Assembly: GCA_903872565.1 (NCBI GenBank)
Contig: CAIQLG010000172.1
Coordinates: 1-42,896, forward strand
DNA length: 42,896 nucleotides
Origin: an uncultured Lentisphaerota bacterium
GTDB taxonomy: Bacteria; Verrucomicrobiota; Lentisphaeria; Victivallales; GWF2-50-93
Direction: 5' to 3'
Notes under the pieces: model-generated
Seen by the model: only the letters and a program-made list of their open reading frames with translations
What the model was told of the DNA's origin: nothing
Database searches by the model: none
Made by a program: the position numbers and the translations under genes
Shown: piece after piece, positions 6,434-31,359 of the stretch
Position numbering within the stretch: position 1 is the stretch's first letter
Layout of the letters: every line of letters starts with the position of its first letter

Positions 6434-9007
6434 ATGACGGAACAGGTTCAAAAATCCGATGCGGAACTGCTGGCCGGCTTCATCCGGAACACGGATGAAA
6501 CCGCATTGGACGAACTGGTGAAACGTTATGGTCCGATGGTGTTCCGCACGGGATACCGCGTCCTTCACGATGTCCATGAGGCGGAAGATGTGGCACAGGC
6601 CACCTTCATCGTCATGGTCAGGAAGATGGACAGCTTGAAAACAGTTTCAAATCTGCCCGCATGGCTCCACTCCGTGGCTAAAAACGCTGCAATAAACGCT
6701 CTGCGGACTAAAATCCGTAGAAAAACAAGGGAGCGACAGAGCATGGAAAACTATTCGATCCAGTCTCACGATGGCATGGACAGCTTGCGGGAACTCCTGC
6801 ACCAGTCTCTTGACCTGGAACTCGAAAGACTCACCGGCAACCAGCGACAGGCTGTGATCCTACGCTATCTGCAGGGATACAGCGAAAAAGAGGCCGCTGA
6901 AATTGCCGGCTCTGTTGACGCCCTGAGCCGCCGCGCGAATTTCGGGCTGATCATGCTGAGAAAACGTCTCGGAAAAATCAGCCCGGCACTCGGCATCTCG
7001 ATGATTCCGCTTCTGGACTCGGAAGCGAAAGCGCAGGTTTCCCCGACACTCCTTTCTTCCATAAAATCCGCTGTCCTGTCAGCCAAGGCCGGAACCTTGG
7101 CGGTCAGCGGAACAACCGCCTATCTCATGGCAAAAGGAGTATTGGAAATTATGTTCTGGAACAAAGTCAAAGTCGTAGCCGTGGCCACAATCGTAGTCCT
7201 GGCTATCCCGTCAACAGTCATTGTAATAAATGCGCGGGAAAAACCGCCCGCCAGCGCAGAAAAAATCGTCAATTCCATTCCACCGCCAGCTAAAAATCCA
7301 GTGGTCTCCCAGGCAGGACAAATTCCGAAGGACTCAAAAAGACACGTGGCTGCAAAGAAGAGGGATTATGAGTCTGAAATAAAAAAACGTCTTCTTGAAC
7401 TTGCACCACAGGGTGAAGAATTAGAGTCTTATCGTGCGACTCTAAATATACTCGGAGAATTCTTTGATGAAGATCAGTCCTCTCTGATTGAATGGGCCAG
7501 GAAATCATGTGAAACACAGATATGGGGGGGGCACCTGCTTCCATTTATAGTCGAAATATGGGCTGAAAAAGACCCCAAAGCCGCAATTGAGTGGATTGCC
7601 ACCCAATCGGAATGGATTACGATAAGACCGGGACGGGAAACCTGTTATTGTGGTGTGGCACGGGGCTGGGCAAAAAAAGATCCTACGGCCGCTATCGAAT
7701 GGATAAGAACAAGACCTGAGTCAGAGCAAGGAACTTTATATTATAGCGCTCTCATGGGCTGGGGAACGAAAGATCCTGAAGCCGCGTTAAAGTGGGCTGG
7801 GCAAAATCCAAAATTGGTACATCAGCATGCATTGGCTTTTGTAATTGGGGAATACTCCAATAATAATCCTGAAGAAGCGGCAAAATTGGCTTTGCAAATT
7901 TCTGCTGATAATACGGCGGACATGCCTGTGAACAATCCGGAAGCGAAGAAAAGAGCATTGGCTTTGGCACTTTGTAAGACATTTGGATATATTGCCAATA
8001 ACTGGGCTATGAAAGATCCCAAGGCGGCGGCAGAATGGGCTATGCAACTGTCTGAAGGCGAGGCACGTGACACGGCATTGGTGGCAGTAGCTAAAAAATG
8101 GTATTTAACGGAACCGAATGCCGCATTGCAGTGGATTACGCAACTGCCTAACCGAGACAACGCATTGTCGGCAATTGCCACAGCTTCAGCTATTAATAAT
8201 CCGGATGCGGCAATAAAACTTGCCATGGAAATTCCAGAAGGCAACCTCCGTGAAAAGACATTGATGGATGTTGCCAAGGTTTGGTCTATGAAAGATCCAA
8301 CGGCGGCAGCGCAATGGGCTATGCAGTTACCTGAAGGTCAACTCAAAGACAAAGTTTTAGCCCAAGTGGTTGGATCTTTGGCTTGTGAAGATCCAGATGC
8401 GGCGGAAAACCTCACCATGCAAGCATCTGATGGTAAAGGAAAGGATGAAGCTTTATCAAAAAGGGCTGACTCTTTGTCTTTTAAAGATCCGGAAAAGGCG
8501 GCAAAACTGGTAATGCAAATTCCTGAAGGCGACCTCCGATACAATACACTAGTGGGTGTCGCATACAATTGGACCATGAAAGATCCTAAGGCGGCAGCAG
8601 AATGGGCCGTGCAATTGCCTGAAGGTCAAACCAAAGACAAAATTTTACTCCGAATGGTTGAACCTTTGGCTTACAAAGATCCGGATGCGGCGCTAAACCT
8701 CGCCAGACAAGCTTCTAAAGGTAAAGGAAAGGATGAAATTTTATTCGCAGTGGCCAGAGGCTTGGCTTCTAAAGATCCGGAAAGGGCGGCAAAACTTGCC
8801 ATGGAAATGTCGGATGACAAAGAACAGTCCATCTTCGGTCACAAGTCCATGGCATTGATGGACGTGGCCTGCTACTTGAATTTGAAAGACAGCACGAAGG
8901 CAAACGAATGGGTTAATAACCTGAAAATTCCCGATCCAATAAGAAAAATAATCCTGCAAAATATGAAAAAATTCAAGGCGGATAACGAGGCTGCCAAGAA
9001 GCAATAA
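6434..9007 (+). CDS. ECF sigma factor fused to a membrane anchor and alpha-solenoid repeat tail
   Basis: The 857-residue protein starts with a complete ECF sigma-70 core: region 2 at about 20-92 (ALDELVKRYGPMV, EAEDVAQATFIV, LPAWLHSVAKNAAINALR) and region 4 at about 125-180 (ERLTGNQRQAVILRYLQGYS, then a recognition helix). A hydrophobic segment at 244-266 (VKVVAVATIVVLAIP) follows, then a Pro-rich linker. From about 370 to 835 there are at least twelve helical repeats of some 30-35 residues with the motif (K/x)DPxAAxxWAxQLPEG or DPxxAAKLAMQ. The predicted topology puts sigma inside and the repeats outside the inner membrane. GAGGAG lies upstream of the ATG. Such C-terminally extended ECFs are known in PVC bacteria; the tail may sense a ligand or be cleaved. 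Confidence 0.85.
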   Translation: MTEQVQKSDAELLAGFIRNTDETALDELVKRYGPMVFRTGYRVLHDVHEAEDVAQATFIVMVRKMDSLKTVSNLPAWLHSVAKNAAINALRTKIRRKTRERQSMENYSIQSHDGMDSLRELLHQSLDLELERLTGNQRQAVILRYLQGYSEKEAAEIAGSVDALSRRANFGLIMLRKRLGKISPALGISMIPLLDSEAKAQVSPTLLSSIKSAVLSAKAGTLAVSGTTAYLMAKGVLEIMFWNKVKVVAVATIVVLAIPSTVIVINAREKPPASAEKIVNSIPPPAKNPVVSQAGQIPKDSKRHVAAKKRDYESEIKKRLLELAPQGEELESYRATLNILGEFFDEDQSSLIEWARKSCETQIWGGHLLPFIVEIWAEKDPKAAIEWIATQSEWITIRPGRETCYCGVARGWAKKDPTAAIEWIRTRPESEQGTLYYSALMGWGTKDPEAALKWAGQNPKLVHQHALAFVIGEYSNNNPEEAAKLALQISADNTADMPVNNPEAKKRALALALCKTFGYIANNWAMKDPKAAAEWAMQLSEGEARDTALVAVAKKWYLTEPNAALQWITQLPNRDNALSAIATASAINNPDAAIKLAMEIPEGNLREKTLMDVAKVWSMKDPTAAAQWAMQLPEGQLKDKVLAQVVGSLACEDPDAAENLTMQASDGKGKDEALSKRADSLSFKDPEKAAKLVMQIPEGDLRYNTLVGVAYNWTMKDPKAAAEWAVQLPEGQTKDKILLRMVEPLAYKDPDAALNLARQASKGKGKDEILFAVARGLASKDPERAAKLAMEMSDDKEQSIFGHKSMALMDVACYLNLKDSTKANEWVNNLKIPDPIRKIILQNMKKFKADNEAAKKQ

Positions 9008-13978: not shown

Positions 13979-14363
13979 TGATTATCATAAGTCTGCTTGA
14001 TCGTAAATAAGATGTAGCCGCCTCCACCTGTCCCCCGTAGCTTCCTTGCGAAGGAGGATGTTGGAGGCGACACGGCCAACATGGCCGTGGCTACAAGTTT
14101 CAAGCCATACGGCATTCCTTAGGAAAATACAATTTCCTATACGATCAAGTTAAAAGGCTGTATACTATACGCATTTTGCTTTAAGGGAATGTAACCGTTT
14201 GTAGATAGAGTTAAAATGGCTAAGCACATGTCAATCCTAGTTTAGCTTTATAAGTAAATTCAATATTTATAAAAATTACACCAAAGATTCATGTGCAGAA
14301 TATATCTAATATGTGTAAGAACGATTTTAATGTGAGTAAAAATATAACAATTAGGAGATGAAG
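13979..14363. repeat. Spacer with an expanded family A palindromic repeat
   Basis: GCCTCCA (14020-14026) and TGGAGGC (14062-14068) are here separated by a 35-base insert that itself contains TTCCTTGCGAAGGA. CACGGCCA (14071-14078) pairs with TGGCCGTG (14082-14089). The CAATTTCC-TATACGATCAA word follows at about 14130-14148, as at 9164 and 9295. The remaining 200 bases before the next gene are AT-rich and presumably carry its promoter; no gene is seen. Confidence 0.65.
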
Positions 14364-15308
14364 ATGAAAAAAGCGATGGTGATGATGGTGATGTGCGTGG
14401 TGGTTCTCATGGGTCGAGCGCTTTTCGCTGAAGATGTTCCAAGTGTCTGTCCGACGGCAATCTTCCCGTTTGAGGAACGCGGGGAAGGAATAAAGGGTTT
14501 CGGAGCGAAAGTGGCCGACATCATGTTCGCAAAGATGGTGGTAAATCCCGCTCTTTATCTGGTGGATCGCCAGGAAATGCAGAAAACTTTTCAAGAATAT
14601 GAGTTAACCCTTTCAGGAATAGTCAAACCTGACGAGGCTGTGAAAGTGGGCAAACTTACTGGTGCCAAGGTGCTTGTGACCGGTTCGGTGATCGAGGCTG
14701 ACAAGTCATTGTATCTCGTCGCAAAAGTCATTGGCACCGAGAGCGGCCGTGTACTGGGCGAATCAGTGAAAGGCAAAATCAGCGATCCTATTGAGACACT
14801 CGTGGAGCAATTGGCGGAAAAGGTCACGGCCCTGATCGTGAAGGATTCGGAAAAGCTTGTCGTAAAAGAACCCAAAATGGAAGATCGTATCGCGGCATTG
14901 AACAAACTGCTCGGCAATGCCAAACGCCCCATTGTAATGGTTCGTATAACAGAACGTCACGTCGGCCAAGCCACAGTTGATCCGGCGGCGGAAACAGAAA
15001 TAACCCTGGTCTGCAAGGAAACTGGCTTCGAAGTGCTTGACCCGAAATCAGCTGCCGATAAAAAGGCAGACATAATGATTGAGGGCGAAGGTTTCAGCGA
15101 ATTCGCATTGCGCAAAGGCAACATAGTCAGTGTCAAGGCACGTCTTGAAGTCAAGGCTGTTGACCGGAGCACGGACAAGATAATCGCAGTTGATCGCCAG
15201 ACATCCGTAGAAGTGGATCTTACCGAACAGATCGCCGGAAAGAAGGCTCTTCAAAATGCAGCAATGGCAATAGCCGAACGTATGCTTCCTAAACTGGTGA
15301 ACAAATAA
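14364..15308 (+). CDS. CsgG/LpoB-fold exported protein
   Basis: The 314-residue protein has a signal peptide (MKKAMVMMVMCVVVLMGRALFAED). Residues 30-150 resemble the CsgG/FlgO-like fold (AIFPFEERGEG, KVADIMFAKMV, YLVDRQEMQKTFQEYEL, GKLTGAKVLVTGSVIE, LYLVAKVIGTESGRVLGE), and a second alpha/beta domain covers 190-314. Proteins of this fold form curli-type export channels or periplasmic assembly factors. There is no lipobox Cys, so it is probably periplasmic. ATG 14364 is preferred over 14358 because AGGAG at 14353-14357 abuts the earlier codon. It heads a run of three CsgG-fold genes. Confidence 0.7.
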   Translation: MKKAMVMMVMCVVVLMGRALFAEDVPSVCPTAIFPFEERGEGIKGFGAKVADIMFAKMVVNPALYLVDRQEMQKTFQEYELTLSGIVKPDEAVKVGKLTGAKVLVTGSVIEADKSLYLVAKVIGTESGRVLGESVKGKISDPIETLVEQLAEKVTALIVKDSEKLVVKEPKMEDRIAALNKLLGNAKRPIVMVRITERHVGQATVDPAAETEITLVCKETGFEVLDPKSAADKKADIMIEGEGFSEFALRKGNIVSVKARLEVKAVDRSTDKIIAVDRQTSVEVDLTEQIAGKKALQNAAMAIAERMLPKLVNK

Positions 15309-19010: not shown

Positions 19011-22000
19011 ATGAAAATTATCTGCATATCAATGTTTTTCTTTAATCTGCTCTTCGCGAATTTCGCATCATGCCATGGGGATGGGAATATTCCCTCTGGC
19101 GAAGCTCCTGTCAAAATTGCGATAATCGCAGATGAAAGTCTGCGCGAATATGCCGACATCCTGACCGTAGAACTCTCGAAAGATAAAGACTTGGTGCTTC
19201 TTGAGCGTTCCAAGATAGACAAGATTTTCAAGGAACAGCAGATCTCAGTGGAAAACTTGGGCGCAAAATCCATTGAACTAGGGAAATTACTCGGTGCAGA
19301 TGGCCTCATAATTCTGAAAAAGATCAATTTTGACAAGAAAGAGTTTGTCGTATCAAGACTGGTCGCTGTGAATACCGGGGTGATACTCGGAGCCACATTC
19401 CAGCCATTCCCGCCGGAAAAGTCGGATGAATGGCTTAAAGGCATTCAAACAAGATTCCTCCTTCTTTTGCCCAAATTAAAAGTCCAATCGAAAGATTCTG
19501 TTCCCATATCAATCCTAAATATTCGAGCACCGATTGATACTTCGGAATTGAAACTGCTTGAAAAAGAATTTACTCTTGCACTTGCATTCCGACTTGTTCA
19601 GGAAAAGGAAATATTTGTCCTTGAACGCTGGAAGATGGAAAAACTCGATTGGGAAAAAGACCTCGGATCTGCGGAAAACAATCCTTTCTGGACAGGGAGT
19701 TATCTCCTCGATGGAAGTATTGAACTTGTCGGGGATGATTCCATAAAAGTCGTAGTTCGTCTGAGAAAGCCATCTGGAGAGGAACTACGACTTGAAGAGA
19801 CCGGAAAAAAAGACAAGCTCAACGAAGTTACAGACAGATTGACCAAAAAAATTCTTCAAGAACTCGGCAAAAGCTCGGAGAATATAAGCTGGGACACAAA
19901 AGCCGAGGCGGAATAATATTTAAAAGAGGCCGAATGGGCATATGATGCAGGTCTTTTCGAGAATGCGGTTTCAAGTATTCAAAACTCAGTGGCTTTAGGA
20001 GAGAAATCCTTGAAATCGCTATTCTTAGAAGTGAAGGCAAATTCCAACTGTGCGTATCCTTCGAAACAAACAAATATCTGGGTATGGGAAGGATGTGGCT
20101 ATAATCCAAAATCTATTGATGTATCAAAGGATTCATATAACATCGAACATGCAATTACATCTTTGGAATTACTAAACCGAAACATTCTAAACAATTTTGT
20201 AGAACTTAGGAAATCGTCAACACTTCTAGTGCAGGTATACGAAATAGTGGATCACTCCATGTTGAATGCATCTATTGTGTTAAGGGCATATTATGACCAG
20301 GCCTGTTCAGATAAGGATATGGACAAGAAGATAATATTGAGGAAAACTTTGAGAGATACATACAATAGGATCGAACAGATTTACTGCACTTATGGATTGA
20401 ACTTGAACATTTTCAACATAAAGGCAGCATATGTCCCTTTTTGGTATGAAAGCAAGGAAGAATCTCTGAAAGCCTGCTACGAGTTATTTGAGGAACAACA
20501 AATTAAAAATGAGAGAGAACATTTTTATGTTACAAAGAAATGGCTGACATTTCAAGGAATACTTGAGGAAATGACTCTTTTTAGGGGGGCAGGGCGAGTC
20601 ATTCATAAAAACATTGATGATCCAAATCGAACACCATTTCTTGTTGACTGGACAAACAAGGAGGGCAAGTCAACACTGGACCAGCAGTGGATGAATTTTA
20701 TTGAGAAATTATGTTTGTCTGACAATTTAAAATTAAAATATGCTGGGTTATTTATTAAATCTTGGTATTTCGACGCAACAGGAAAGGAAGGGGAGAATAC
20801 TGCATTAAATGAACTATTGCAACTTTCCTGGGATGAAAGGGAGAATATTGCAGATGGGAAAAGTGATTTCCCTCCGTTTTATGCAAATCAGTTTGAAGTC
20901 AAATGTCCTAAAGACAAGGAGAAATTGTCGGAATATTATTTCAAATACACAAGGTTCTGGCTAGATGAGTATCCTAAAAAGAGCAATTTCCAGTTCTATT
21001 ATCGCTATCCTGAAATATTCAATAGCTGGTTAAAGGATTCAAATTTAGACCAAGCTTTGTTAATTTATCCATTACTGATCAACTACAAGGCGGCAATTAA
21101 AAACAAAACAAATTATGACTATACAAACAATCTTATCAAATGTTTGCTTCAAAAATATCCTGAACTGATAAAATCTGAGGAAAAATCATTAAAAGTCTCC
21201 AGAATATGGACACCATTTGAGTCTGATAAAAACCATGATGGCTGGAATTTCTCAATTAACCATATTGCAGAGTGCAATTCAAATTTATGCGTAATAGCAT
21301 CTCTTCATATTTTCCTGATAAAATCAGATCTGTCGTCAGAAACCATTGATTTCCCACCAAAAAAATATGGTTATTCTTTTTTTGACGTGTCAAACCGATT
21401 TGTTATTGGACTCAACGGCAATAATGGGAAAATTATAATATACGACATGGTCGAAAAAAAATGGAATGAATATGAAATCACCCAAAAGGATTACAAATCC
21501 ATCAAAATTATTAAGGGAAATGTTTTCATTGCCTTCGTATCTGGCGAAAAAAATGAAAATCCGGACAGCGGAATCATTAAGTTAAACCTAGAAAACGGCC
21601 AGTCTGATATCATTGCTGATTCTCGGAGAAAACCACCCCAGTCTCCACTTGACAACATCCAACCATATAATATTGACAACATGCTGCAAATTGAACCTGA
21701 TATTGTATTGTTCTCCATCATTCACCGGGAAAAACCTTTGAGTCCGGATTATCTGGCATATGATGTTTCAAACAATAAATGGACGGAGCTATTATCTCTC
21801 GATGAAAAAATCCTCAAAAAAATATTCAGACACAAAATTACATTGGAATACTTTACAGAGAGCAAGGATATCTATGAGAGATATGTATATGGTGGCTGTA
21901 TATTGCCAATCTTTGCAATGAACCAAAATAAAACAATTTGTCTTCATTATAATGATACCAAGGATATTTCTCCAAAATTGGCGAATTTGGAGGAGTGGAA

Positions 22001-22376: not shown

Positions 22377-22411
22377 TTTTCAGCGGTTCCGGCTATATAT
22401 TGGTAGAAACG
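22377..22411 (+). promoter_or_regulatory. Second copy of the sigma-gene leader motif
   Basis: These 35 bases carry TTTC, CGGTT, CTATAT, TGG and AGAAACG in the same order as 6380-6412. TGTAAC occurs just upstream at 22371-22376. AAGGAAG at 22415-22421 then serves the start at 22430. An autoregulated ECF-type promoter is possible, but the spacing between blocks differs by two bases. Confidence 0.45.
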
Positions 22412-22429
22412 CAAAAGGAAGATGCGAAA

Positions 22430-23017
22430 ATGGATGCCAATGCAATATCTGAAACAATCGAGACCGTCAAAAATGGCGACAAAAATGCCTTCCTGCATGT
22501 CGTCGAACATTTCGAGCCCAGAATGAGGGCTTTCATCGCAGTCAGATGCTATGACAGGGCCACAGTTGACGATCTTGTCCAAGAAGTCTTCATCTTCGCC
22601 TACAATCATCTTGGAGACTTCCGTGAAGGCACCAATTTCCAGGCCTGGCTCTATGCGATTGCGAAAAACAAAACACTCGAAGAGCTGAAAAAGAAGATGC
22701 GCTTCGCAAAGGCTCACAACAACTATATAGACTATATACTTTCCTTGAGGGCCGAGGAGAACTTCCTGGGTGAAAGCGCCCTGGACTCCAAGCTCGCCGC
22801 CCTGTCCCAATGCTTGAGGAAGGCCGGAAACAAGGTCGCGGAGTTCCTCAGGCTCCGCTATAAGGACAATATGAGCCACAGGGAAATTGCCGAGGTCTAT
22901 GGGCGCAACGAAAACTGGGCCAAGATCTTTTTCTTCCGCTCGAAGAACCTGCTCAAGAAATGCCTCGAGGATTCAAATCCTCCAATAAACAAAGGAGAAT
23001 ACAGTGAGAACGCCTGA
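22430..23017 (+). CDS. ECF RNA polymerase sigma factor at head of the pilus-like cluster
   Basis: The 195-residue protein has region 2 (HVVEHFEPRMRAFIAV, TVDDLVQEVFIFAYN, FQAWLYAIAKNKTLEELKKK) and region 4 (LSQCLRKAGNKVAEFLRLRY then HREIAEVYGRNENWAKIFFFRSKNLLKKCL). It resembles the Rhodopirellula/Planctomycete-type ECFs. ATG 22430 is preferred over the TTG at 22400 because AAGGAAG lies eight bases before it. It overlaps the next gene by 14 bases, so the two are co-translated. Confidence 0.88.
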   Translation: MDANAISETIETVKNGDKNAFLHVVEHFEPRMRAFIAVRCYDRATVDDLVQEVFIFAYNHLGDFREGTNFQAWLYAIAKNKTLEELKKKMRFAKAHNNYIDYILSLRAEENFLGESALDSKLAALSQCLRKAGNKVAEFLRLRYKDNMSHREIAEVYGRNENWAKIFFFRSKNLLKKCLEDSNPPINKGEYSENA

Positions 23018-23636
23018 AGATAATATTGAACATTCAACATACGATGAACTCATCGAAAAATATATGGAAGGAATACTTTCCGAGACCGAGGAGAAAAAAC
23101 TCGCCTGCTGGCTTGAGGAATCGGAGGAAAACAAGTCTATACTCTGTGATACGGTGTTTTTCGATTCGCTTCTTTCGGCGGTGGTCAAACAGGATGCTCC
23201 CGACATCGCGGCTATACGGCAAGTTGGTGAGAGACTCGGCCTTGAAAGCGAATCTAGAAGACGGCAAAAGTCGGCTGTCCTGGAAGGGGTCGGGAAATAC
23301 ATTGCCGAATCTGAACAGACACCTGTGAGAATTGCGAATTTTGCAGAGTTTGAAAAGAGGGTGAAAATTGCGGAATTCGCAAATTTCTTCCTCAAAACTG
23401 CCGCTGCCGTTGTCCTGATGCTTTTTGCATATCTCTTCTACACCATTACTCCATTGCCATCGCAATCCAAATCAAGATCCGCAGTAAGTCCGACCGAACT
23501 TCCAGACATGGCGGACAGTAAAATACTCGACATCGGCAAGACAACCTACAACGGAACACTTGTCGCAAAAAACATAATCAACAGCGAAGATTTTAACTAT
23601 ATAAGCCAATTGCAAAATTTTGGTTTTAAGAAGTAG
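23004..23636 (+). CDS. Membrane-anchored probable anti-sigma factor
   Basis: The 210-residue protein starts at GTG 23004 with AAAGGAG at 22991-22997. The cytoplasmic N-terminus (YDELIEKYMEGILSETEEKKLACWLEE) matches the helical start of FecR/PVC-type anti-sigma factors, which bind ECF sigma. One membrane helix (about 132-152, AAAVVLMLFAYLFYTI) is followed by a periplasmic tail of only about 55 residues. Overlap with the sigma gene makes an anti-sigma role likely. The short tail leaves little room for a sensor domain. Confidence 0.65.
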   Translation: MRTPEDNIEHSTYDELIEKYMEGILSETEEKKLACWLEESEENKSILCDTVFFDSLLSAVVKQDAPDIAAIRQVGERLGLESESRRRQKSAVLEGVGKYIAESEQTPVRIANFAEFEKRVKIAEFANFFLKTAAAVVLMLFAYLFYTITPLPSQSKSRSAVSPTELPDMADSKILDIGKTTYNGTLVAKNIINSEDFNYISQLQNFGFKK

Positions 23637-23638
23637 CG

Positions 23639-23676
23639 CAAGCCTCCGGCTTGCAGGCAAACAAGCCGGAGGCTTG
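23639..23676 (+). terminator. Perfect 15-base hairpin between anti-sigma and gspF-like genes
   Basis: CAAGCCTCCGGCTTG (23639-23653) is the exact reverse complement of 23662-23676 with an 8-base loop. It starts right after the stop codon. The following bases (TTCTACATC) are not a T-run, so it may be a dispersed REP-like hairpin that attenuates or protects mRNA rather than a full terminator. Confidence 0.5.
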
Positions 23677-23708
23677 TTCTACATCAAATACAACAAAGGA
23701 TGACGACA

Positions 23709-24761
23709 ATGAAAACCAGGAATTCGGACATTATTGATTTTTACAGGCAACTTTCTCTCCTGCTCGAGTCGAATCTGCCACTTCCAGAAAGCCTCAGACA
23801 GCTCGCGGAAAACTTCCAGAGACAGGATTTCAAGGAAGTTTTATCAAAACTTTCCGATAAGACCGCCATCGGGACGCCACTGTCCAACGCGATGAAGAAT
23901 TTCCCTGAACAATTCCAGCCGTTCCATATAAAGATGATAGAGGGGGGCGAGAAAAGCGGGAATCTGCCGGAAATCCTCCGAGAGGTCGCCTACATCTCAC
24001 ACATAGATTCGCAACTTGTCTCGATGGTCAAATCAATCGCGGCATATCCGATCTTCGTGCTTCTATTCTCGGCATCACTGATGCTTCTTATTTACACTTT
24101 TATCGTACCGAATTTTGACAATATGTTTATGGAAATGCTTGGAGGCATGCCACTTCCTGCATTGACAGAACTGACAATTTTGATCTCCAGATTCTCTGTT
24201 GCCTATTTTCCAGTCCTGTCTATCATTCTCGGCATTCTGATCATCTTTTCATTCTGGCTTTTCCTTTCCGGCTCGACATTCGCAATAAAATGTTTTATGA
24301 AGATCATAAGGCGTCTCCCTCTGTCATATTCCATATTCAACAATCTCATGATGGCGAGGATCTGCTCGATGTGGTCGGTCCTTATGAGACAGAAAATCCC
24401 GGCCGATCAGGCATTCCAGACAATTGCGGGTTTTATGGACGATACTGCAGTGTCAAGCGCTCTGCGGAATCTCTCGAGAAAAGCCTTCGAGGGCAAATCG
24501 CTTGCTGAAAGCCTCGAAGAAGAGGGAGTCATTTCCAAAATGATCTCGCTCACGGTCAAGCATAGTCCGGAGCGGGAACTGCCGAATGAACTTGCGACCC
24601 TCGCAAATGTCTATAAGGACCGTGCGGCGACAGCCATAAGAAACACAGGAATGGTCTGGGAGGCGCTTCTCATAATCATAATGGCGGCCCAGGTCGGACT
24701 TATAGTTATGAGTCTTTTTATGCCGCTGATAAGAATAATTGACTGCCTTGGAGGGTCATAA
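23709..24761 (+). CDS. GspF/PilC-type inner-membrane platform protein
   Basis: The 350-residue protein has the two-lobed T2SSF architecture. Helical domain 1 (FYRQLSLLLESNLPLPESLRQL ... MIEGGEKSGNLPEILREVA) is followed by a membrane pair at about 115-145 and 170-200. Domain 2 (MARICSMWSVLMRQKIPADQAFQTI ... LVKHSPERELPNELATLA-like) and a final membrane helix (LLIIIMAAQVGLIVMSLFMPLI) complete it. It would form the assembly platform on which a GspE-type ATPase extrudes pilins. ATG 23709 is preferred over 23700, which directly abuts AAAGGA. It is two bases upstream of a second platform gene. Confidence 0.85.
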   Translation: MKTRNSDIIDFYRQLSLLLESNLPLPESLRQLAENFQRQDFKEVLSKLSDKTAIGTPLSNAMKNFPEQFQPFHIKMIEGGEKSGNLPEILREVAYISHIDSQLVSMVKSIAAYPIFVLLFSASLMLLIYTFIVPNFDNMFMEMLGGMPLPALTELTILISRFSVAYFPVLSIILGILIIFSFWLFLSGSTFAIKCFMKIIRRLPLSYSIFNNLMMARICSMWSVLMRQKIPADQAFQTIAGFMDDTAVSSALRNLSRKAFEGKSLAESLEEEGVISKMISLTVKHSPERELPNELATLANVYKDRAATAIRNTGMVWEALLIIIMAAQVGLIVMSLFMPLIRIIDCLGGS

Positions 24762-24763
24762 AA

Positions 24764-26221
24764 ATGCAAAATGTTCTAATAAATAACGAATATGGCATTC
24801 CTGTATCCTTGTTGGGATTTCCGAACAGTTCCAGGTCTGCTGGAAGGGAAGGCGAGATAGCAACGCTTCTTGGATGGGCTGTCCAGAGAAATATTCCCTT
24901 CCAGAATGCGCTTGCCTGCATTGCCTACAAAAAACCAGGAACAATAGGTAATTTCCTTGTCTTATTTTCCAGATCATACGAAACTCATATCATCGCAGCC
25001 ATCATTGAACTTGAAAAGGGAAAGCCACTGTCCTTCGCTCTTAAAAAATATCTTTCAAAATATCTTTCTCCATATTATCTTGCCGCTGTGGAGAAGGCGG
25101 AGAAAGAGGGCAAGCTTGCGGAAATCCTTCCACAGCTTGCGGAAAACATAAGATTCACTTCCGGTGTCAAGGATCAGTTCAAGGCATCTGTTGCTTACCC
25201 TATATCACAGTTAATAATAGCATTAATGGTTTTTTCAGGTCTATTTGTCTTGATAATTCCAAAATTCCAAAAAATCTTCGCGGAACTTATAGAAAATATG
25301 CAGTTTCCTCCATTAATGCAATTTATAATTGGAATATCGAATTCCTTTCTTGCCAACTTCATCTTTGGAATACTAAAATTTTTCGTAGGTTTAATTTTTA
25401 TTCCGATAATTGTCCTGAATGAAATGAAAATAAATACTTTTGCTCTGTCCAATTCATTTTTTGATTTCATTCAAATCACATTCATTGTCATAATTCCATA
25501 TCTGTCTTATCGTTTCATATCAAAATGGTACAACTCCAGTTCCAGTTCAAATAAGAACGTGTGGCTTTACATCTTTTTTACTGGACTTGGGATAGCCACT
25601 ATGGTTATGGCTTCATTTCTTGTTCATAATGGAAGCACCGGGATTATATCCATAACTTTTTTTGGTATTCTACAGATATTGTTTATTTTTATTGTCCCTT
25701 ATCTTTATTTCAGAATCATATATGCCTTTGGCAAATTTGTCATAGTTCATTCTGTAGATATCCTGGTTCATATCCCATTCTTTGGAAAACAGGTGAAGAA
25801 AATTGGTTTGCTCGAGCTTTCCGGCGCGATGGCGACACTTACAGGCGCAGGATACGATGTTCTTGAAGCCGCGAAATGGAATTCAGACACGGTTTCCGGC
25901 TACTGGCTGAAAAAAAGGCTCAGGAATTTTATGAAATCCGTGGAAAGCGGTAAAAACTGGTCGGACGCCTGGGAGGAGATGCATCTCGGATCACCTGCCC
26001 AGAACTGGATCGTCCGCAATGCAGCCTCGCGAGAAAATCCCTATGAAGGCTTCAGAATGCTCTCCGAATGGCTCAGAACCGAAATAAACAGTCAGACAAA
26101 CATCTCCATGAGATTTTTCGAGGTTTTCTGTATTTTTTTCAATGCAACATTCATAGGGATCACGATTTTCGCGATCTGGCAGTGCCTCTGGAAATTGATT
26201 TACTACTCGGTTGAATTTTAA
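24764..26221 (+). CDS. Second GspF-like platform protein with extra membrane segments
   Basis: The 485-residue protein has GspF-type half-domains at both ends: residues 30-140 (GWAVQRNIPFQNALACIA, AVEKAEKEGKLAEILPQLAENI) and 350-485 (LLELSGAMATLTGAGYDVLEAAKWN ... SGKNWSDAWEEM). Between them lie about 200 residues with roughly seven hydrophobic helices instead of the usual two (for example LIIALMVFSGLFVLIIP, FFVGLIFIPIIVL, FIVIIPYLSYRFI, IFFTGLGIATMVMASFLV, ILQILFIFIVPYLYF). This is about 80-140 residues longer than ordinary GspF. It follows the first platform gene by two bases, so the two may form a heteromeric platform. Confidence 0.75.
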   Translation: MQNVLINNEYGIPVSLLGFPNSSRSAGREGEIATLLGWAVQRNIPFQNALACIAYKKPGTIGNFLVLFSRSYETHIIAAIIELEKGKPLSFALKKYLSKYLSPYYLAAVEKAEKEGKLAEILPQLAENIRFTSGVKDQFKASVAYPISQLIIALMVFSGLFVLIIPKFQKIFAELIENMQFPPLMQFIIGISNSFLANFIFGILKFFVGLIFIPIIVLNEMKINTFALSNSFFDFIQITFIVIIPYLSYRFISKWYNSSSSSNKNVWLYIFFTGLGIATMVMASFLVHNGSTGIISITFFGILQILFIFIVPYLYFRIIYAFGKFVIVHSVDILVHIPFFGKQVKKIGLLELSGAMATLTGAGYDVLEAAKWNSDTVSGYWLKKRLRNFMKSVESGKNWSDAWEEMHLGSPAQNWIVRNAASRENPYEGFRMLSEWLRTEINSQTNISMRFFEVFCIFFNATFIGITIFAIWQCLWKLIYYSVEF

Positions 26222-26235
26222 AGGAGATATAAATA

Positions 26236-26343
26236 ATGGATGCAAAAAAACAAACGTGTAATGTGTCAGTGGAGAGCCACGCTCTGTCGTGGCCGGACGC
26301 GACGAAGCGTGTCCCTCCATTAATGCCAATTACCAATAAATAG
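26236..26343 (+). CDS. Short ORF (35 residues) built from a dispersed repeat
   Basis: An excellent AAGGAG at 26221-26226, with spacing of nine bases, precedes ATG 26236. The ORF starts MDAKKQTCNVSV and then runs through a GC-rich repeat (SHALSWPDATKRVPP). Such repeat-derived peptides are seen in other genomes of this kind and are probably not functional proteins. The strong ribosome binding site may be what remains of the original start of the ATPase gene, now displaced downstream; the frames differ. Confidence 0.3.
   Translation: MDAKKQTCNVSVESHALSWPDATKRVPPLMPITNK
26271..26318. repeat. GC-rich dispersed repeat (family C)
   Basis: The block starts GGAGAGCCACGCTCTGTCG, continues GGCCGGACGCGAC and ends AGCGTGTCCCTCC. 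Its parts recur, inverted, at 9391-9470. Internal complementarity (CACGCTCTGTCGTG and the outer GGAG...CTCC) allows a hairpin. It lies between two genes of the pilus-like operon without an obvious terminator. Confidence 0.55.
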
Positions 26344-26374
26344 TGGCTGATGCCAATCAATATGAAAGACAATT

Positions 26375-27439
26375 ATGAAGAACAACAATGACATAAACGG
26401 AAGCGATGCTGTGAAGGTGGTTGATGCCATTCTCTCTGATGCGCTTGAACAGAAGGCCAGCGATGTCTATTGGATTCCAGGCGCGGAATCGTGCGACGTC
26501 AGATTCAGGATAAATGGTGTCCAGAAAAAAATTCTCGAACTCGGCAACCGTGAACTTGCGGCCCAGTGCGCGTCACGGATCAAGGTGCTTTCTGGAATGC
26601 TCACATACAAGAGCAAGACATCGCAGGATGGTTCGATCAAGGGAGTTGCGAATTTCGCAGGCGCAGAGCTCAGAGTCGCTGCAATGCCTACAATCCACGG
26701 CGAACGGATAAGCATAAGGATTCTCGGGGCGGGCGGCGGACCGAAATATCTCGAGGAACTCGGATTTCAAAGCTCCGTCCAGGAAGGGCTGCGGTCAATG
26801 CTCGTACCGTCCTGCGGACTCATCGTGCTGACAGGTCCCACCGGATGCGGAAAGACAACCACCATCTATGCTATGATAAGGGAGCTTCTGCGAAATTCGC
26901 AGGATCCCGCCTCCATAATTTGCATAGAAGATCCCGTCGAGAAAGTGATGCCAGAAATATCGCAGGTGTCGCTCACGAGGAGCGGCGACGACTGGGGCTA
27001 CGAGGAGGCGCTCAGGGCAGCACTTCGCCAAGATGTTAAAACTCTGATTATTGGCGAGATAAGAGACTACGGAGTGTCGAAAGTGGTTCTGAATGCGGCA
27101 CTTAGCGGACACCGCGTTATAACCACACTTCATGCCGGCGATATACCTTCCGTATATGCGCGGCTTCTCCACCAGGGCTTCGAACCCTTCCTGGTGGCAT
27201 CCGCGATAACCGGGGTCGTGACACAGCGGCTTGCATCGTCAAAGGATGGAGGCGAAAGGAAACCTGTGGCCGCCTTTCTTTCACCTGACGACAAGTGGAA
27301 GGATTTTATCATAGCGAATCCCGGAATTTCTGATATGCGGCGCAAGATACTGGAATATCCGGATGCGGACCTGAAGTCTGTCGCCAATAAACTGGCCGAA
27401 AAGGGAATAATCTCCAAAAAGGATGCGATGCTGATATGA
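26375..27439 (+). CDS. GspE/PilT-type secretion ATPase, short form
   Basis: The 354-residue hexameric motor ATPase has an N2-like domain (residues 15-118, DALEQKASDVYWIPG, VRFRINGVQ, SQDGSIKG, RVAAMPTIHGERISIRIL). Then come Walker A GPTGCGKTT (154-162), Asp box IEDPVE (184-189), Walker B LIIGEIRD (224-231) and His box TTLHAGD (250-256). It lacks the N1 domain of full GspE/PilB and the tetracysteine zinc motif, so it is PilT-sized, although PilT-specific AIRNLIRE is absent. The start is weakly supported (only GAAAG upstream). It overlaps the next gene by four bases. It would power pseudopilus extension or retraction. Confidence 0.85.
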   Translation: MKNNNDINGSDAVKVVDAILSDALEQKASDVYWIPGAESCDVRFRINGVQKKILELGNRELAAQCASRIKVLSGMLTYKSKTSQDGSIKGVANFAGAELRVAAMPTIHGERISIRILGAGGGPKYLEELGFQSSVQEGLRSMLVPSCGLIVLTGPTGCGKTTTIYAMIRELLRNSQDPASIICIEDPVEKVMPEISQVSLTRSGDDWGYEEALRAALRQDVKTLIIGEIRDYGVSKVVLNAALSGHRVITTLHAGDIPSVYARLLHQGFEPFLVASAITGVVTQRLASSKDGGERKPVAAFLSPDDKWKDFIIANPGISDMRRKILEYPDADLKSVANKLAEKGIISKKDAMLI

Positions 27440-27840
27440 AAAAGAGAAATAAAAAAATGATTGTCAGGCACTTTCTTCTGATGGAGCTTGTGATAGCGTT
27501 CGCTATATTCGTGTTCATCGCAGGAAGTTTCTACACATTAAATTCTTCGATGGCAAAATATCGCGGACAACTCGAGAACCAGACCGAGGCTCTTTCCGTG
27601 GTGGACAATTTTCTCGAGAGGCTTTCCGCTGTGAAAAGCCCGACCACTGGCGTCGCGGGAAAAATATTCAGGATCGAATTTGACAGAAGCCAGCTCAAAG
27701 ACAAGGAAGGAATAAGCACAGTCTTCCAGGAAAAAGACGGACTTTTTATAGTCGAAATAAAAAATGCTAAAGGAAATATTCTGGCAAAGGCGGAGATTAA
27801 ACAAAAGAAAGCCATAGAGGGCCCGGGAAAAAATCAATAA
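27436..27840 (+). CDS. Pilin-like protein without Gly at -1
   Basis: The 134-residue protein starts with a basic leader (MKKRNKKMIVRH) followed by FLLMELVIAFAIFVFIAG, the type IV pilin/pseudopilin helix with Glu at +5 if Phe is +1. The residue before the cleavage site is His, where Gly is nearly invariant. A globular C-terminal domain of about 95 residues follows. The start overlaps the ATPase stop (ATGA). It may be a minor pseudopilin, an uncleaved pilin, or adapted to an unusual peptidase. Confidence 0.65.
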   Translation: MKKRNKKMIVRHFLLMELVIAFAIFVFIAGSFYTLNSSMAKYRGQLENQTEALSVVDNFLERLSAVKSPTTGVAGKIFRIEFDRSQLKDKEGISTVFQEKDGLFIVEIKNAKGNILAKAEIKQKKAIEGPGKNQ

Positions 27841-27943
27841 TCCGGGAATCAGAAAATATGAATATTATAACCACAGAATACACGGAAAAAGAAATAGAAT
27901 ATTTGCCTGCGAAACACGCGAATTTCGCGAAAAGAGGAAAACA

Positions 27944-28372
27944 ATGAGAACAAAAAAATATTACACTCTGATTGAGATGCTCACTGTGATTGCCTTGATT
28001 GTAGTCTTCATGACTGCGGTGACGGGTTTTTTCTATGACGGCTCTAAAAACTGCCGCACAGCACTTAAGGAGGCCTATCTGAACAGCGATGCAACAATGC
28101 TCAGAAAACAATGGAGGACGTTCATTGGCGGATGCCCTGGAAGTTTCGAGATCCGCGACGGAGTCCTTCGTTCCGGTGCGAATTTCGCAAAATCCGAAAA
28201 GGAGACCCTTGTGCTATCTTCTGACGGGAAGGAAAGAAAGTTCGTATTCCCTGTGAACGCGTCTTTCAATTTCAGTATTGAGAAGGACGATGCACTTCCA
28301 GAATCCGTCGTTGTCGAGATAAAATCTCCGGAACAACATAAAATAAGGATAGTAGCCTGTGAAAAGAAATAA
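27944..28372 (+). CDS. Second pilin-like protein without Gly at -1
   Basis: The 142-residue protein reads MRTKKYYTLIEMLTVIALIVVF: a short basic leader and a pilin helix with Glu at +5 (YTLIE), preceded by Tyr rather than Gly. The remaining 110 residues look like a small GspH-like beta domain (VLSSDGKERKFVFPVN). AGAGGAAAA lies before the ATG. It is separated from the previous gene by 103 bases containing a CGCGAATTTCGCG palindrome, and overlaps the next gene by 14 bases. Confidence 0.65.
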   Translation: MRTKKYYTLIEMLTVIALIVVFMTAVTGFFYDGSKNCRTALKEAYLNSDATMLRKQWRTFIGGCPGSFEIRDGVLRSGANFAKSEKETLVLSSDGKERKFVFPVNASFNFSIEKDDALPESVVVEIKSPEQHKIRIVACEKK

Positions 28373-28544
28373 TAAAAAAGATGAAGGTTTCGCGATGATA
28401 ATGGTTCTGGTCTTCGCTTCCATACTGTTCATCCTAGTGGCGGTGACGCTGAACGGATATTTCGCCTGGCAGAAGATGAACAGGAAATTTGCCGAAGACA
28501 ACAGCAGAACCGCGGAAAAGATCATAGTTCTACCCGACAAGTAA
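28359..28544 (+). CDS. Very short pilin-like/GspK-type N-terminus, possibly frameshifted
   Basis: From GTG 28359 the 61-residue frame gives KKDEGFAMIMVLVFASILF, with the Gly-Phe cleavage site and no Glu at +5, as in GspK or PilX minor pilins, but the protein ends after about 35 further residues. GspK is normally over 250 residues. In the -1 frame the reading continues past the stop as NQTWAIPQDDGEEVAARVSP and ends at 28612, so a frameshift near the AAAA run at about 28516 may have occurred. It is either a genuine tiny membrane component or a remnant. Confidence 0.45.
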   Translation: MKRNNKKDEGFAMIMVLVFASILFILVAVTLNGYFAWQKMNRKFAEDNSRTAEKIIVLPDK

Positions 28545-28612
28545 ATCAGACCTGGGCCATCCCGCAAGATGACGGAGAGGAAGTGGCGGCAAGAGTAAGT
28601 CCACATTGCTAA

Positions 28613-28821: not shown

Positions 28822-31359
28822 GTGAATATTTGCAAGGAAAAGGAAAAAATCCGCTTCTTCTACGAGGAGGGAGCCAAGCTGTGGAAAGCCGCCCCGGAAC
28901 GTGTGATTAGCCGCGAATTCTACGAACTCTGGGAAGAGGTTCAACAGCCCAAGCCTTTCATACTGCCCGAAGGTCCCCTTAAGATTCTCGATCAGACTTT
29001 TGAACTCCCCGAGGACGAATCGGGAAAAATCGGTTATTTCCAATGGGATTGTGATGAAGCCTGCCCGTCCCTGGTGATCGAAGGTGAAAACACTGTCCAA
29101 AAACTTCTTTTCTCATTTGACGACGGGGCGCCGATGATCCAGGAGACGGATCCGATTTTCCTGGAAAATACCGATCTGTCGTTCGGCGAGCGGCTGGATC
29201 TGATTTACGATGTGATCGCATACACAAAAAAGAATTTCCCGGCACGAGACGTATTGTCAATGACAAAAAAGGAATTTATTGAATCTCTGGACGGCATTTC
29301 AGGAGATCATGACCCGGATGCGATAAGCGCCATGCGCCGATCTTCAGCTCATTTCATAAAATTCATGCTTAAAAATGCGGCGGAAGACATGGCGACAGAC
29401 GAACTGAGCGATCAGCTTAGTCTGGCGCTGGGCGGAAATTATTCTGCAACGGGAGGAATTGATACTCAAGCTGAAGGCAAGCAGACGCCCACAGGGCAGA
29501 AAAACATGGAAATAGAAATCCCGAGGAGAAGCAGATGGGCGATTCAGAACGATCTTGAATTCTTGTCGCTTGCGACCTGGAAGTCGTTCGAGACGGAAAA
29601 AGAGTTTGTTCTGAGTCTGGAAGGACTCAGGGTCTTGAAACTGGACAAGCATGAGGCCGTGATCGAATTGCCTGCGAAACCTTCCATGCCATTGTCGGAA
29701 GGCGACATCCTCAATGTTTTCGAACGAGGTGTTTCCGAGAAGGCCGGAACTTTCAAGATAGATCTTTTCGATGGATGGAGAGTATATGGCCGTCTCCGGA
29801 TGGACGGCATAAATGAGGAAAATAATTTTGGGAAGCGCCTTTTTGCGCGGCCTGTCAAAAGCGCAAGGTCACTTCTTGCCGCAGCATTTGACGTACTGAT
29901 GGACGACTATAAGAAGGAATATTTCTCCAGGAACAAGACAGTAGTTAATTTTCTGCTTGGAATGGAACCATTCAAATATGTGCAAGGTATCTGCGAGGGT
30001 GCACCTGAAAAACTCGATTACTCACAGAAGCTAGCCTGGAGCACAGCTACCAATCCGGAAAATAGAATCGTCTTGATCCAGGGGCCGCCTGGGACGGGAA
30101 AGACATGTGTCATGGAATCTGTGCTGAGGACTTTGTGCGAGAAGGGACTGCGGATTCTTGTCACGGCTCCTTCGAATACGGCGCTTGACAATATCTGTCG
30201 CCGTGCCGAAGGGCTTCCGGTCCTTCGTTTTGGCGCTTTTGCCGATGCGATCGCTCCTGACATTCTTGAAAGATATTGGATCAACGAGAATAAGAACATC
30301 AAAAAATTCACTGTGCTCAGAGATGAGTTCAAGGGTGGCGGGATTTATGCGGGAACCCATGTCGGTCTCATAAAGAATTCTCTCATAGACAAGGATGTCG
30401 CGCAGAACGGCCTCTTTGATGTGATACTTTTCGACGAGGCCGGAATGTCCCGCATGGAGGAGTTTGTCCTCTGTGCGCGTTTCGCAGGGAAGGCTGTTCT
30501 TTTCGGAGATCATCAGCAGCTTCCTCCTTTTCCTATGCCGGATCAGGTAATGAAGACAATCAAGGAAAACTATGGAGCAATGAACCGACACCTGCATTCT
30601 CTTATTTCTGTGAGTGCCCTGGAATGGCTCGTGACCGAACGGAAATTTCCGATCATAATGCTCCAGAAATCCTACCGTTGCCAGAACCCGAGGCTTTTCC
30701 GTTTCGCCTCGACTCTTTTTTATGATGCCACTGTCAAAACAAGCGAACAGGCTGAATACTACCGCCTTCCATACGCAGAGCGTCAGCGCATTTATCCGCC
30801 TTCGACTGTCCGGCTCTACCGTACAAGCAAGCTTCCGGCCGAATTAAGACATGAAAAACTTATTCTAGAGGGAAACAAGCCTGGTCTGGAAAATCAGCTC
30901 GAGGCCAGGATCTGCGCAAATATCCTATACGAAAATCTGGTCAGATATCCTTTGTCTGAAATAACGGTAATCGCTCCATACCGCCGCCAGATCCGCCTTT
31001 TGCGCTCAATGCTCGACTTCAAGAGGGCGCGAGGAAAAAAGCCCGATCTAAACAGGGAGGAATGGGAAAGATTCCTTCAGACCAGAATAGCTACTGTGGA
31101 CAGCTTTCAGGGAGGCGAAAGCGATCTCGTTATAATAAGTTATGTCAGAAGCAACGATGGTGGCGGAATCGGTTTTGTGGATGATCCCAACAGGGTGAAC
31201 GTTGCCCATACTCGCTGTCGCCGCGAAATGATCATAGTCGGCGATACCGAATGCCTGAAAAAATATGCAAAAAACAATGTCTTCCAAAGAATGGAGCGCG
31301 CCATTGGCAGGGACGGCGAGATAATTGATGTCGATTCACAAATGACAATAAATCTGTAA
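28822..31359 (+). CDS. Superfamily 1 DNA/RNA helicase (DNA2/NAM7, IGHMBP2-like)
   Basis: The 845-residue protein has a 380-residue N-terminal region and an SF1B helicase core. Motif I is GPPGTGKT near 420, Ia VTAPSNTALDNI, II VILFDEAGM near 537, III LFGDHQQLPPF, IV QKSYRCQNP, V IATVDSFQGGESDLVIISYVR and VI RVNVAHTRCRREMIIVGD. The order is as in IGHMBP2/Upf1-type enzymes, which unwind RNA or DNA 5' to 3'. The GTG start has only a weak ribosome binding site, so the exact N-terminus is uncertain. It ends seven bases from a convergent operon, with no room for a dedicated terminator. Confidence 0.88.
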   Translation: MNICKEKEKIRFFYEEGAKLWKAAPERVISREFYELWEEVQQPKPFILPEGPLKILDQTFELPEDESGKIGYFQWDCDEACPSLVIEGENTVQKLLFSFDDGAPMIQETDPIFLENTDLSFGERLDLIYDVIAYTKKNFPARDVLSMTKKEFIESLDGISGDHDPDAISAMRRSSAHFIKFMLKNAAEDMATDELSDQLSLALGGNYSATGGIDTQAEGKQTPTGQKNMEIEIPRRSRWAIQNDLEFLSLATWKSFETEKEFVLSLEGLRVLKLDKHEAVIELPAKPSMPLSEGDILNVFERGVSEKAGTFKIDLFDGWRVYGRLRMDGINEENNFGKRLFARPVKSARSLLAAAFDVLMDDYKKEYFSRNKTVVNFLLGMEPFKYVQGICEGAPEKLDYSQKLAWSTATNPENRIVLIQGPPGTGKTCVMESVLRTLCEKGLRILVTAPSNTALDNICRRAEGLPVLRFGAFADAIAPDILERYWINENKNIKKFTVLRDEFKGGGIYAGTHVGLIKNSLIDKDVAQNGLFDVILFDEAGMSRMEEFVLCARFAGKAVLFGDHQQLPPFPMPDQVMKTIKENYGAMNRHLHSLISVSALEWLVTERKFPIIMLQKSYRCQNPRLFRFASTLFYDATVKTSEQAEYYRLPYAERQRIYPPSTVRLYRTSKLPAELRHEKLILEGNKPGLENQLEARICANILYENLVRYPLSEITVIAPYRRQIRLLRSMLDFKRARGKKPDLNREEWERFLQTRIATVDSFQGGESDLVIISYVRSNDGGGIGFVDDPNRVNVAHTRCRREMIIVGDTECLKKYAKNNVFQRMERAIGRDGEIIDVDSQMTINL

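Follow-up and report, generated by a model that had tools for sequence, protein, structure and literature searches.

A generic type IV filament system is defined by an ATPase, an inner-membrane platform, and a major pilin (Denise et al. 2019, PMC6668835). In the type II secretion system (T2SS), the pseudopilus is tipped by the minor pseudopilins, which prime its assembly (PMC7248040), and in type IVa prepilins a glycine at position −1 (Gly-1) is standard (PMC3584216). The locus described here encodes a homologous ATPase, a platform, and pilins with class III signal peptides, which places it in the type IV filament superfamily, but it has no major pilin and lies outside the generic definition, so that a survey built on ATPase, platform, and major pilin would miss it. 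Its six core genes, F1, F2, ATPase, pilA, pilB, and pilC (hereafter the module), occur together in a fixed order, have their own ATPase and F1 clades, and are under purifying selection. The module is thus a real and selected, new lineage-specific variant of the superfamily; few gene sets conserved in the family appear to be as small, and literature searches found no description of it.

The analysed stretch of 42,896 nucleotides (the window) is contig C172 (42.9 kb), which belongs to a draft genome of 6.56 Mb, and the cluster occupies positions 22430–28544 of its plus strand. The genes encode, in order, an ECF sigma factor, an anti-sigma-like protein, the two platform proteins F1 and F2, a short GspE/PilB-type ATPase, and the three small pilin-like proteins pilA, pilB, and pilC (Table 1), which is the content and order given by the first-pass annotation of this DNA. 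Pfam profiles match Sigma70_r2 in the first gene, T2SSF in F1 (E = 2e-33) and F2 (E = 5e-20), and T2SSE in the ATPase (E = 1e-64). As that annotation also stated, neither the cluster nor the scanned neighbours include a secretin, a prepilin peptidase, or a major pilin, and a GspL/M-type docking protein is absent from the cluster. Rfam yields no match in the window, and a defence library yields no meaningful match to the platform proteins or the ATPase.

Table 1. Features of the cluster in the window, and alpha-2-macroglobulin (A2M)-like genes at related loci.
Feature	Position	Strand	Basis or property
ECF sigma factor, 195 aa, Rhodopirellula/Verrucomicrobium-type	22430..23017	+	Pfam Sigma70_r2, E = 3e-12
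Anti-sigma-like single-pass membrane protein, 210 aa, GTG start	23004..23636	+	Position, overlap, one hydrophobic segment
Hairpin, two perfect 15-bp arms, loop of 8 bases	23639..23676	+	−39.2 kcal/mol, z −8.6 vs shuffles
F1, GspF/PilC-type inner-membrane platform protein, 353 aa	23700..24761	+	Pfam T2SSF, 115 bits
F2, second platform protein, 485 aa	24764..26221	+	Pfam T2SSF, 72 bits
Dispersed short repeat	26269..26340	.	31 matches in own genome, including itself
GspE/PilB-type assembly ATPase, 354 aa	26375..27439	+	T2SSE; PDB and NCBIfam matches
pilA, minor pilin-like, 134 aa, Glu5 kept, His at −1	27436..27840	+	GspI/ComGE-like N-terminus
pilB, minor pilin-like, 142 aa, Glu5 kept, Tyr at −1	27944..28372	+	Model; GspH profile match
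pilC, pilin-like, 61 aa, little beyond the helix	28359..28544	+	GspK/PilX-type N-terminus
A2M-like genes or truncated forms 5′ of F1, four relatives	L045 11569-16818; L046 11525-16777; L135 6883-9348; L050 7583-8515	−; −; +; +	

F1 and F2 each contain two T2SSF domains. F1, a clear homologue of GspF, scores 166.6 bits against the NCBIfam GspF model (TIGR02120, cut-off 424) and lacks the first ~55–60 N-terminal residues of GspF. Hydropathy places six hydrophobic segments in F2 versus three in F1, bearing out the extra membrane helices first claimed for the second platform protein; the additional segments are carried by an insertion between the two T2SSF domains of F2, with segments at residues ~200–218, 226–244, 269–287, and 293–311. 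Such extras vary among relatives, being absent from G025 and G012 and N-terminal in one G005 copy, and the insertion in the window is therefore a local elaboration. The platform genes also vary in number and linkage: G005 and G006 each carry two F1–F2 pairs, G012 carries two F1 genes, and a single frame of 742 aa in G279 (L136 10241–12466, plus strand) naturally joins F2 to the ATPase.

Among PDB entries, the ATPase matches GspE with 171 bits over residues 10–289 and PilT with 80 bits. Its NCBIfam scores are 221 bits for GspE, 211 for PilB, 192 for ComGA, and 118 for PilT, all below the respective cut-offs; the GspE, TfpB, and PilB models together span 211–221 bits, versus 43 bits for the TadA model. 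By these scores, the ATPase is closer to GspE/PilB than to PilT. It lacks the N1 domain, the GspE alignment beginning at residue 109 of the 486-residue model, and direct reading shows that the Cys-rich zinc segment is missing. The N1 domain of such ATPases normally docks on GspL or PilM; because it is missing here, the ATPase would have to couple directly to the platform, and the F2–ATPase fusion in G279 fits such an arrangement.

The pilin-like proteins are weakly matched by family models. In NCBIfam, pilA matches gspI (TIGR01707, 2.8e-5) and ComGE (1.7e-5), both below cut-off. In Pfam, pilA is unmatched, pilC has no pilin match, and pilB has only a sub-threshold N_methyl match; N_methyl matches 8/14 pilA and 9/14 pilB homologues, and Glu5 is present in all of them. 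The N-terminal region of pilB, and no other part of the protein, weakly resembles the Verru_Chthon cassette pilin-like proteins of the same phylum, at 16.9 bits far below the cut-off of 70 (TIGR02596). AlphaFold models of pilA (pLDDT 87) and pilB (pLDDT 88) are both confident and pilin-like, with a long helix followed in pilA by a helix and three strands and in pilB by eight strands. Searching the PDB with these models by Foldseek gave no match with E below 0.35, GspI- and GspJ-containing entries being among the weak ones. Profile comparison with the T2SS pseudopilins of the host relates pilA to J and then I, pilB to H, and pilC to K. We tentatively treat all three proteins as minor-pilin-like and leave their class unfixed, as the assignments conflict (GspI by NCBIfam versus J by profile for pilA).

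The smallest of the three, pilC, retains Gly-1 and lacks Glu5. It had been read as a pilin cut short, a reading at odds with its 12 homologues, which share the short form (~56–70 aa nearly throughout, with one annotated at 105 aa) and all carry Gly-1; pilC is full length for its family, and a frameshifted or cut gene is ruled out. The first reading that the other two pilins lack Gly-1 is correct, the residue there being His for pilA and Tyr for pilB, and glycine occupies position −1 in just 1/14 pilA and 2/14 pilB homologues versus 12/12 for pilC. The trait is not special to the cluster, since GspI and GspJ of the host are alike in this respect: the host T2SS (contig C207) has Gly-1 in G and K and other residues in H, I, and J. 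Across the host genome, 65/85 matches to the prepilin N-terminal model begin at model position 4 or beyond, past the Gly position, and direct reading of the best 30 of the 85, a set biased towards Gly by its high scores, finds Gly-1 in 12/30. Loss of Gly-1 is thus a trait of the genome and perhaps of the clade; as a hallmark of the machine it was rejected, being typical of pilins in the window's genome.

A single prepilin peptidase was found in the host genome (PilD, contig C46), with CxxC pairs. The ~85 prepilin-type N-termini, mostly without Gly-1, thus coexist with one detected peptidase, and the widespread absence of Gly-1 alongside a lone, ordinary-looking enzyme makes the rules of cleavage in the clade a question that can be put to the test.

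Most of the named relatives retrieved by F1 are metagenome-assembled members of the Lentisphaeria, Victivallales, and Kiritimatiellota, and the host would accordingly belong to the Lentisphaeria group. The F2 search covered 41 relatives, whose loci were then read. The order F1–F2–ATPase–pilA–pilB–pilC is identical in G001, G004, G005, G006, G012, and G030; pilC was not detected in G019, at a contig end, or in G025, the rest of the order being kept, and the module of G022 is cut off by a contig end. Whole or partial modules, recognised by F1, occur in 15/137 genomes and 13/48 genera of the order. Outside it, a single module was found in another part of the phylum (G183), with the ATPase gene on the opposite strand. 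Matches from Bdellovibrionales, WOR-1, Elusimicrobia, Deltaproteobacteria, and Omnitrophica were set aside; none pairs two platform proteins with a short ATPase, and full-length GspF/PilC is present in most.

Trees and profile scores separate the module from ordinary machines. Against the F1 profile, module members among 388 genomes of the phylum score at least 302 bits, versus at most 237 for ordinary PilC. The module ATPases form their own clade (support 100/100), apart from PilB, PilT, GspE, and TadA of the phylum, and the F1 proteins likewise (100/99), while the F2 grouping receives 94/96; the window sequences fall within the module family in the ATPase and F1 trees. Selection was measured between G005 and G006, sister species of a sister genus rather than the window's own genes, and there dN/dS is 0.04–0.24 for all ten genes, including the regulator and A2M, and 0.10 for pilC. 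The module genes of this pair are under purifying selection.

The regulators are more loosely attached. The sigma factor scores 101 bits against NCBIfam TIGR02989 (cut-off 124.55); the anti-sigma-like gene overlaps it by 14 bases, and its product has no match in Pfam or NCBIfam. Only the window and G005/G006, the latter from one sister genus, have an ECF gene next to the module. In G001, the frame of a sigma N-terminus meets a stop just before F1 (L042 11399–11644), about 350 bases from a contig end, with 21/38 residues identical to the window's when counted by eye; the break reflects either decay of the gene or an error of assembly. In the window, the very stable hairpin, which like the repeat between F2 and the ATPase is not in the first-pass annotation, lies between the anti-sigma-like gene and F1, and may serve as an attenuator or a processing site. 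The first-pass annotation had proposed direct coupling of the machine to the ECF pair, a proposal not supported as a property of the machine, given that most relatives are without an adjacent ECF gene, the copy in G001 is broken, and the hairpin intervenes in the window. The pair does not belong to the conserved module; in the window genome it would be a local, replaceable regulator.

A further neighbour, an alpha-2-macroglobulin (A2M) gene or part of one, appears in some relatives. In G005/G006 the order is ECF sigma, A2M, two F1–F2 pairs, ATPase, and pilins, the A2M protein being an inner-membrane protein of 1730–1750 aa with MG2, bait-region, A2M, and thioester domains. Immediately upstream of F1, G334 encodes an 821-aa homologue of the N-terminal and membrane parts of A2M, and G022 a 310-aa homologue of its membrane part. 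The A2M-like genes before F1 contain an internal multi-span membrane segment, the end of which resembles the F1 C-terminus (FMPLI..I.KLGG). The window genome has one TED-domain gene, on a different contig from the module, and at most module loci A2M and ECF are both missing; the association of A2M with the module is patchy.

By NCBIfam score, the module ATPase and F1 are nearest to GspE and GspF, and, as in a T2SS, three minor-pilin-like genes follow one another, the third beginning like GspK, with Gly-1 and without Glu5. In contrast to a T2SS, the module has two platform proteins, an ATPase without N1 and the Cys-rich segment, and a GspK-like protein of only ~60 aa; GspC, D, G, L, M, and O are absent from the cluster, none of the three pilin-like genes being a GspG, and all scores are far under the equivalog cut-offs. 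The Com pilus of the Gram-positive comG operon shares the short ATPase, the GspF-type platform, several tiny pilins, and the lack of a secretin, but the module platform is doubled, a ComGC-like major pilin is missing, the hosts are diderm, and the scores for ComGA (192/300 bits) and ComGB (88/240 bits) are below the curated cut-offs. The Tad/Flp pilus also has two platform proteins; however, F1 and F2 carry two T2SSF domains each, versus one each in the Tad-like platform genes on contig C217, the ATPase is far from TadA, and there is no Flp pilin.

Parts missing from the cluster are encoded elsewhere in the host. The secretin and the peptidase, whose absence from view had been noted at first, are found on contigs C207 and C46 of the window genome: a T2SS-like locus on C207 combines the secretin, GspE, and GspF with five pseudopilin-like genes, and contig C94 carries PilB/PilT/PilC genes. 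A prepilin peptidase is present in 14/14 module genomes and a strong T2SS secretin match in 11/14, with weak matches in G012 and G183 and none in G340, an incomplete genome. Borrowing of resident T2SS or type IV pilus (T4P) parts is possible in most hosts; sharing with the T2SS cannot be universal, because of the weak or missing secretin matches in these three genomes.

We consider it probable that the module encodes a compact machine of the superfamily, specific to its lineage, that moves a minor-pilin complex, assembles a tip complex or a short pseudopilus, and takes its missing parts from the resident T2SS or T4P. F1 and F2 would form a two-subunit inner-membrane platform, powered by the short assembly-type ATPase coupled directly to it. 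The motor would lift pilA, pilB, and pilC as one small complex, in which pilC would supply a GspK/PilX-like cap helix, and the lifted complex would either prime a resident major pseudopilin or act as a short piston. The cell's own T2SS or T4P would supply the peptidase and, where needed, the secretin and major pilin, and the likely role would be to export an envelope or extracellular protein or to display it.

The lack of secretin, major pilin, and assembly proteins could also be taken for decay of an ordinary T2SS/T4P operon, as could the sigma remnant in G001 and the inserted repeat, one of ~30 genomic copies, that separates F2 from the ATPase in the window, two genes that abut or overlap in relatives; copies of the repeat also flank the T2SS genes on C207. 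This reading is scarcely credible: the six genes keep their order in many genomes, dN/dS is low, the clades are separate from the resident GspE, PilB, PilT, and PilC, and full T2SS/T4P genes stand elsewhere in the window genome. The module is therefore not a decaying fragment, and the fixed gene order in related genomes, the separate clades, and purifying selection support the specialised compact machine proposed by the first-pass annotation. A dedicated DNA-uptake machine, the analogue of a Com pilus in a diderm with short ATPase, GspF-type platform, and small pilins like those of comG, is improbable. The ATPase without N1 resembles ComGA over nearly the whole 267-residue model, pilA matches ComGE, and F1 matches ComGB nearly full length, but F1 and the ATPase score higher with GspF and GspE (all below cut-off), no ComGC-like major pilin or competence gene occurs among the neighbours scanned, and the platform proteins are paired, which is not a known feature of comG.

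The module might instead be an accessory platform feeding the resident T2SS; it would build an alternative tip complex and pass it on to GspG, the secretin, and the peptidase of the host, thereby selecting other cargo. The exclusively minor-type pilins, the secretin in most module genomes, and the −1 pattern shared with the host T2SS (I and J non-Gly, K Gly) speak for it; we rate it as rather unlikely, as G012, G183, and G340 have no clear T2SS secretin and a mere tip variant would not need its own ATPase and two platform proteins. The gene order in G005/G006 and the A2M-like N-terminal or membrane parts before F1 in G334 and G022 suggest an envelope-stress device, in which an ECF sigma factor with a membrane anti-sigma or A2M sensor controls a machine that exports or displays a protease trap. 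This is quite improbable for a module that lacks an adjacent A2M in the window, stands apart from both A2M and ECF at most loci, and in the window is separated from its regulator by the hairpin. Finally, it is possible, though on balance unlikely, that no dedicated major pilin takes part at all: the two-subunit platform and stripped ATPase would move only the three-protein tip in the inner membrane, the tip ending in the 60-residue GspK-like helix and being teamed, in part of the clade, with an ECF-controlled, thioester-bearing A2M in the envelope. If the module does work without its own major pilin, it would isolate what a platform, a motor, and minor pilins do alone.

The surroundings of the cluster in the window hold several other genes of note. 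An 857-aa protein (6434–9007, plus strand) has an ECF sigma factor at its N-terminus (Sigma70_r2 and r4_2), its remaining ~650 residues having no family match. Shortly upstream of the cluster lie two CsgG-like proteins (14358–15308 and 19011–19916, plus strand), with a 1082-aa protein without family matches between them. Downstream, a Superfamily 1 helicase (28822–31359, plus strand) resembles the C-terminal part of MkoA-type proteins, scoring 222 bits in the defence library.
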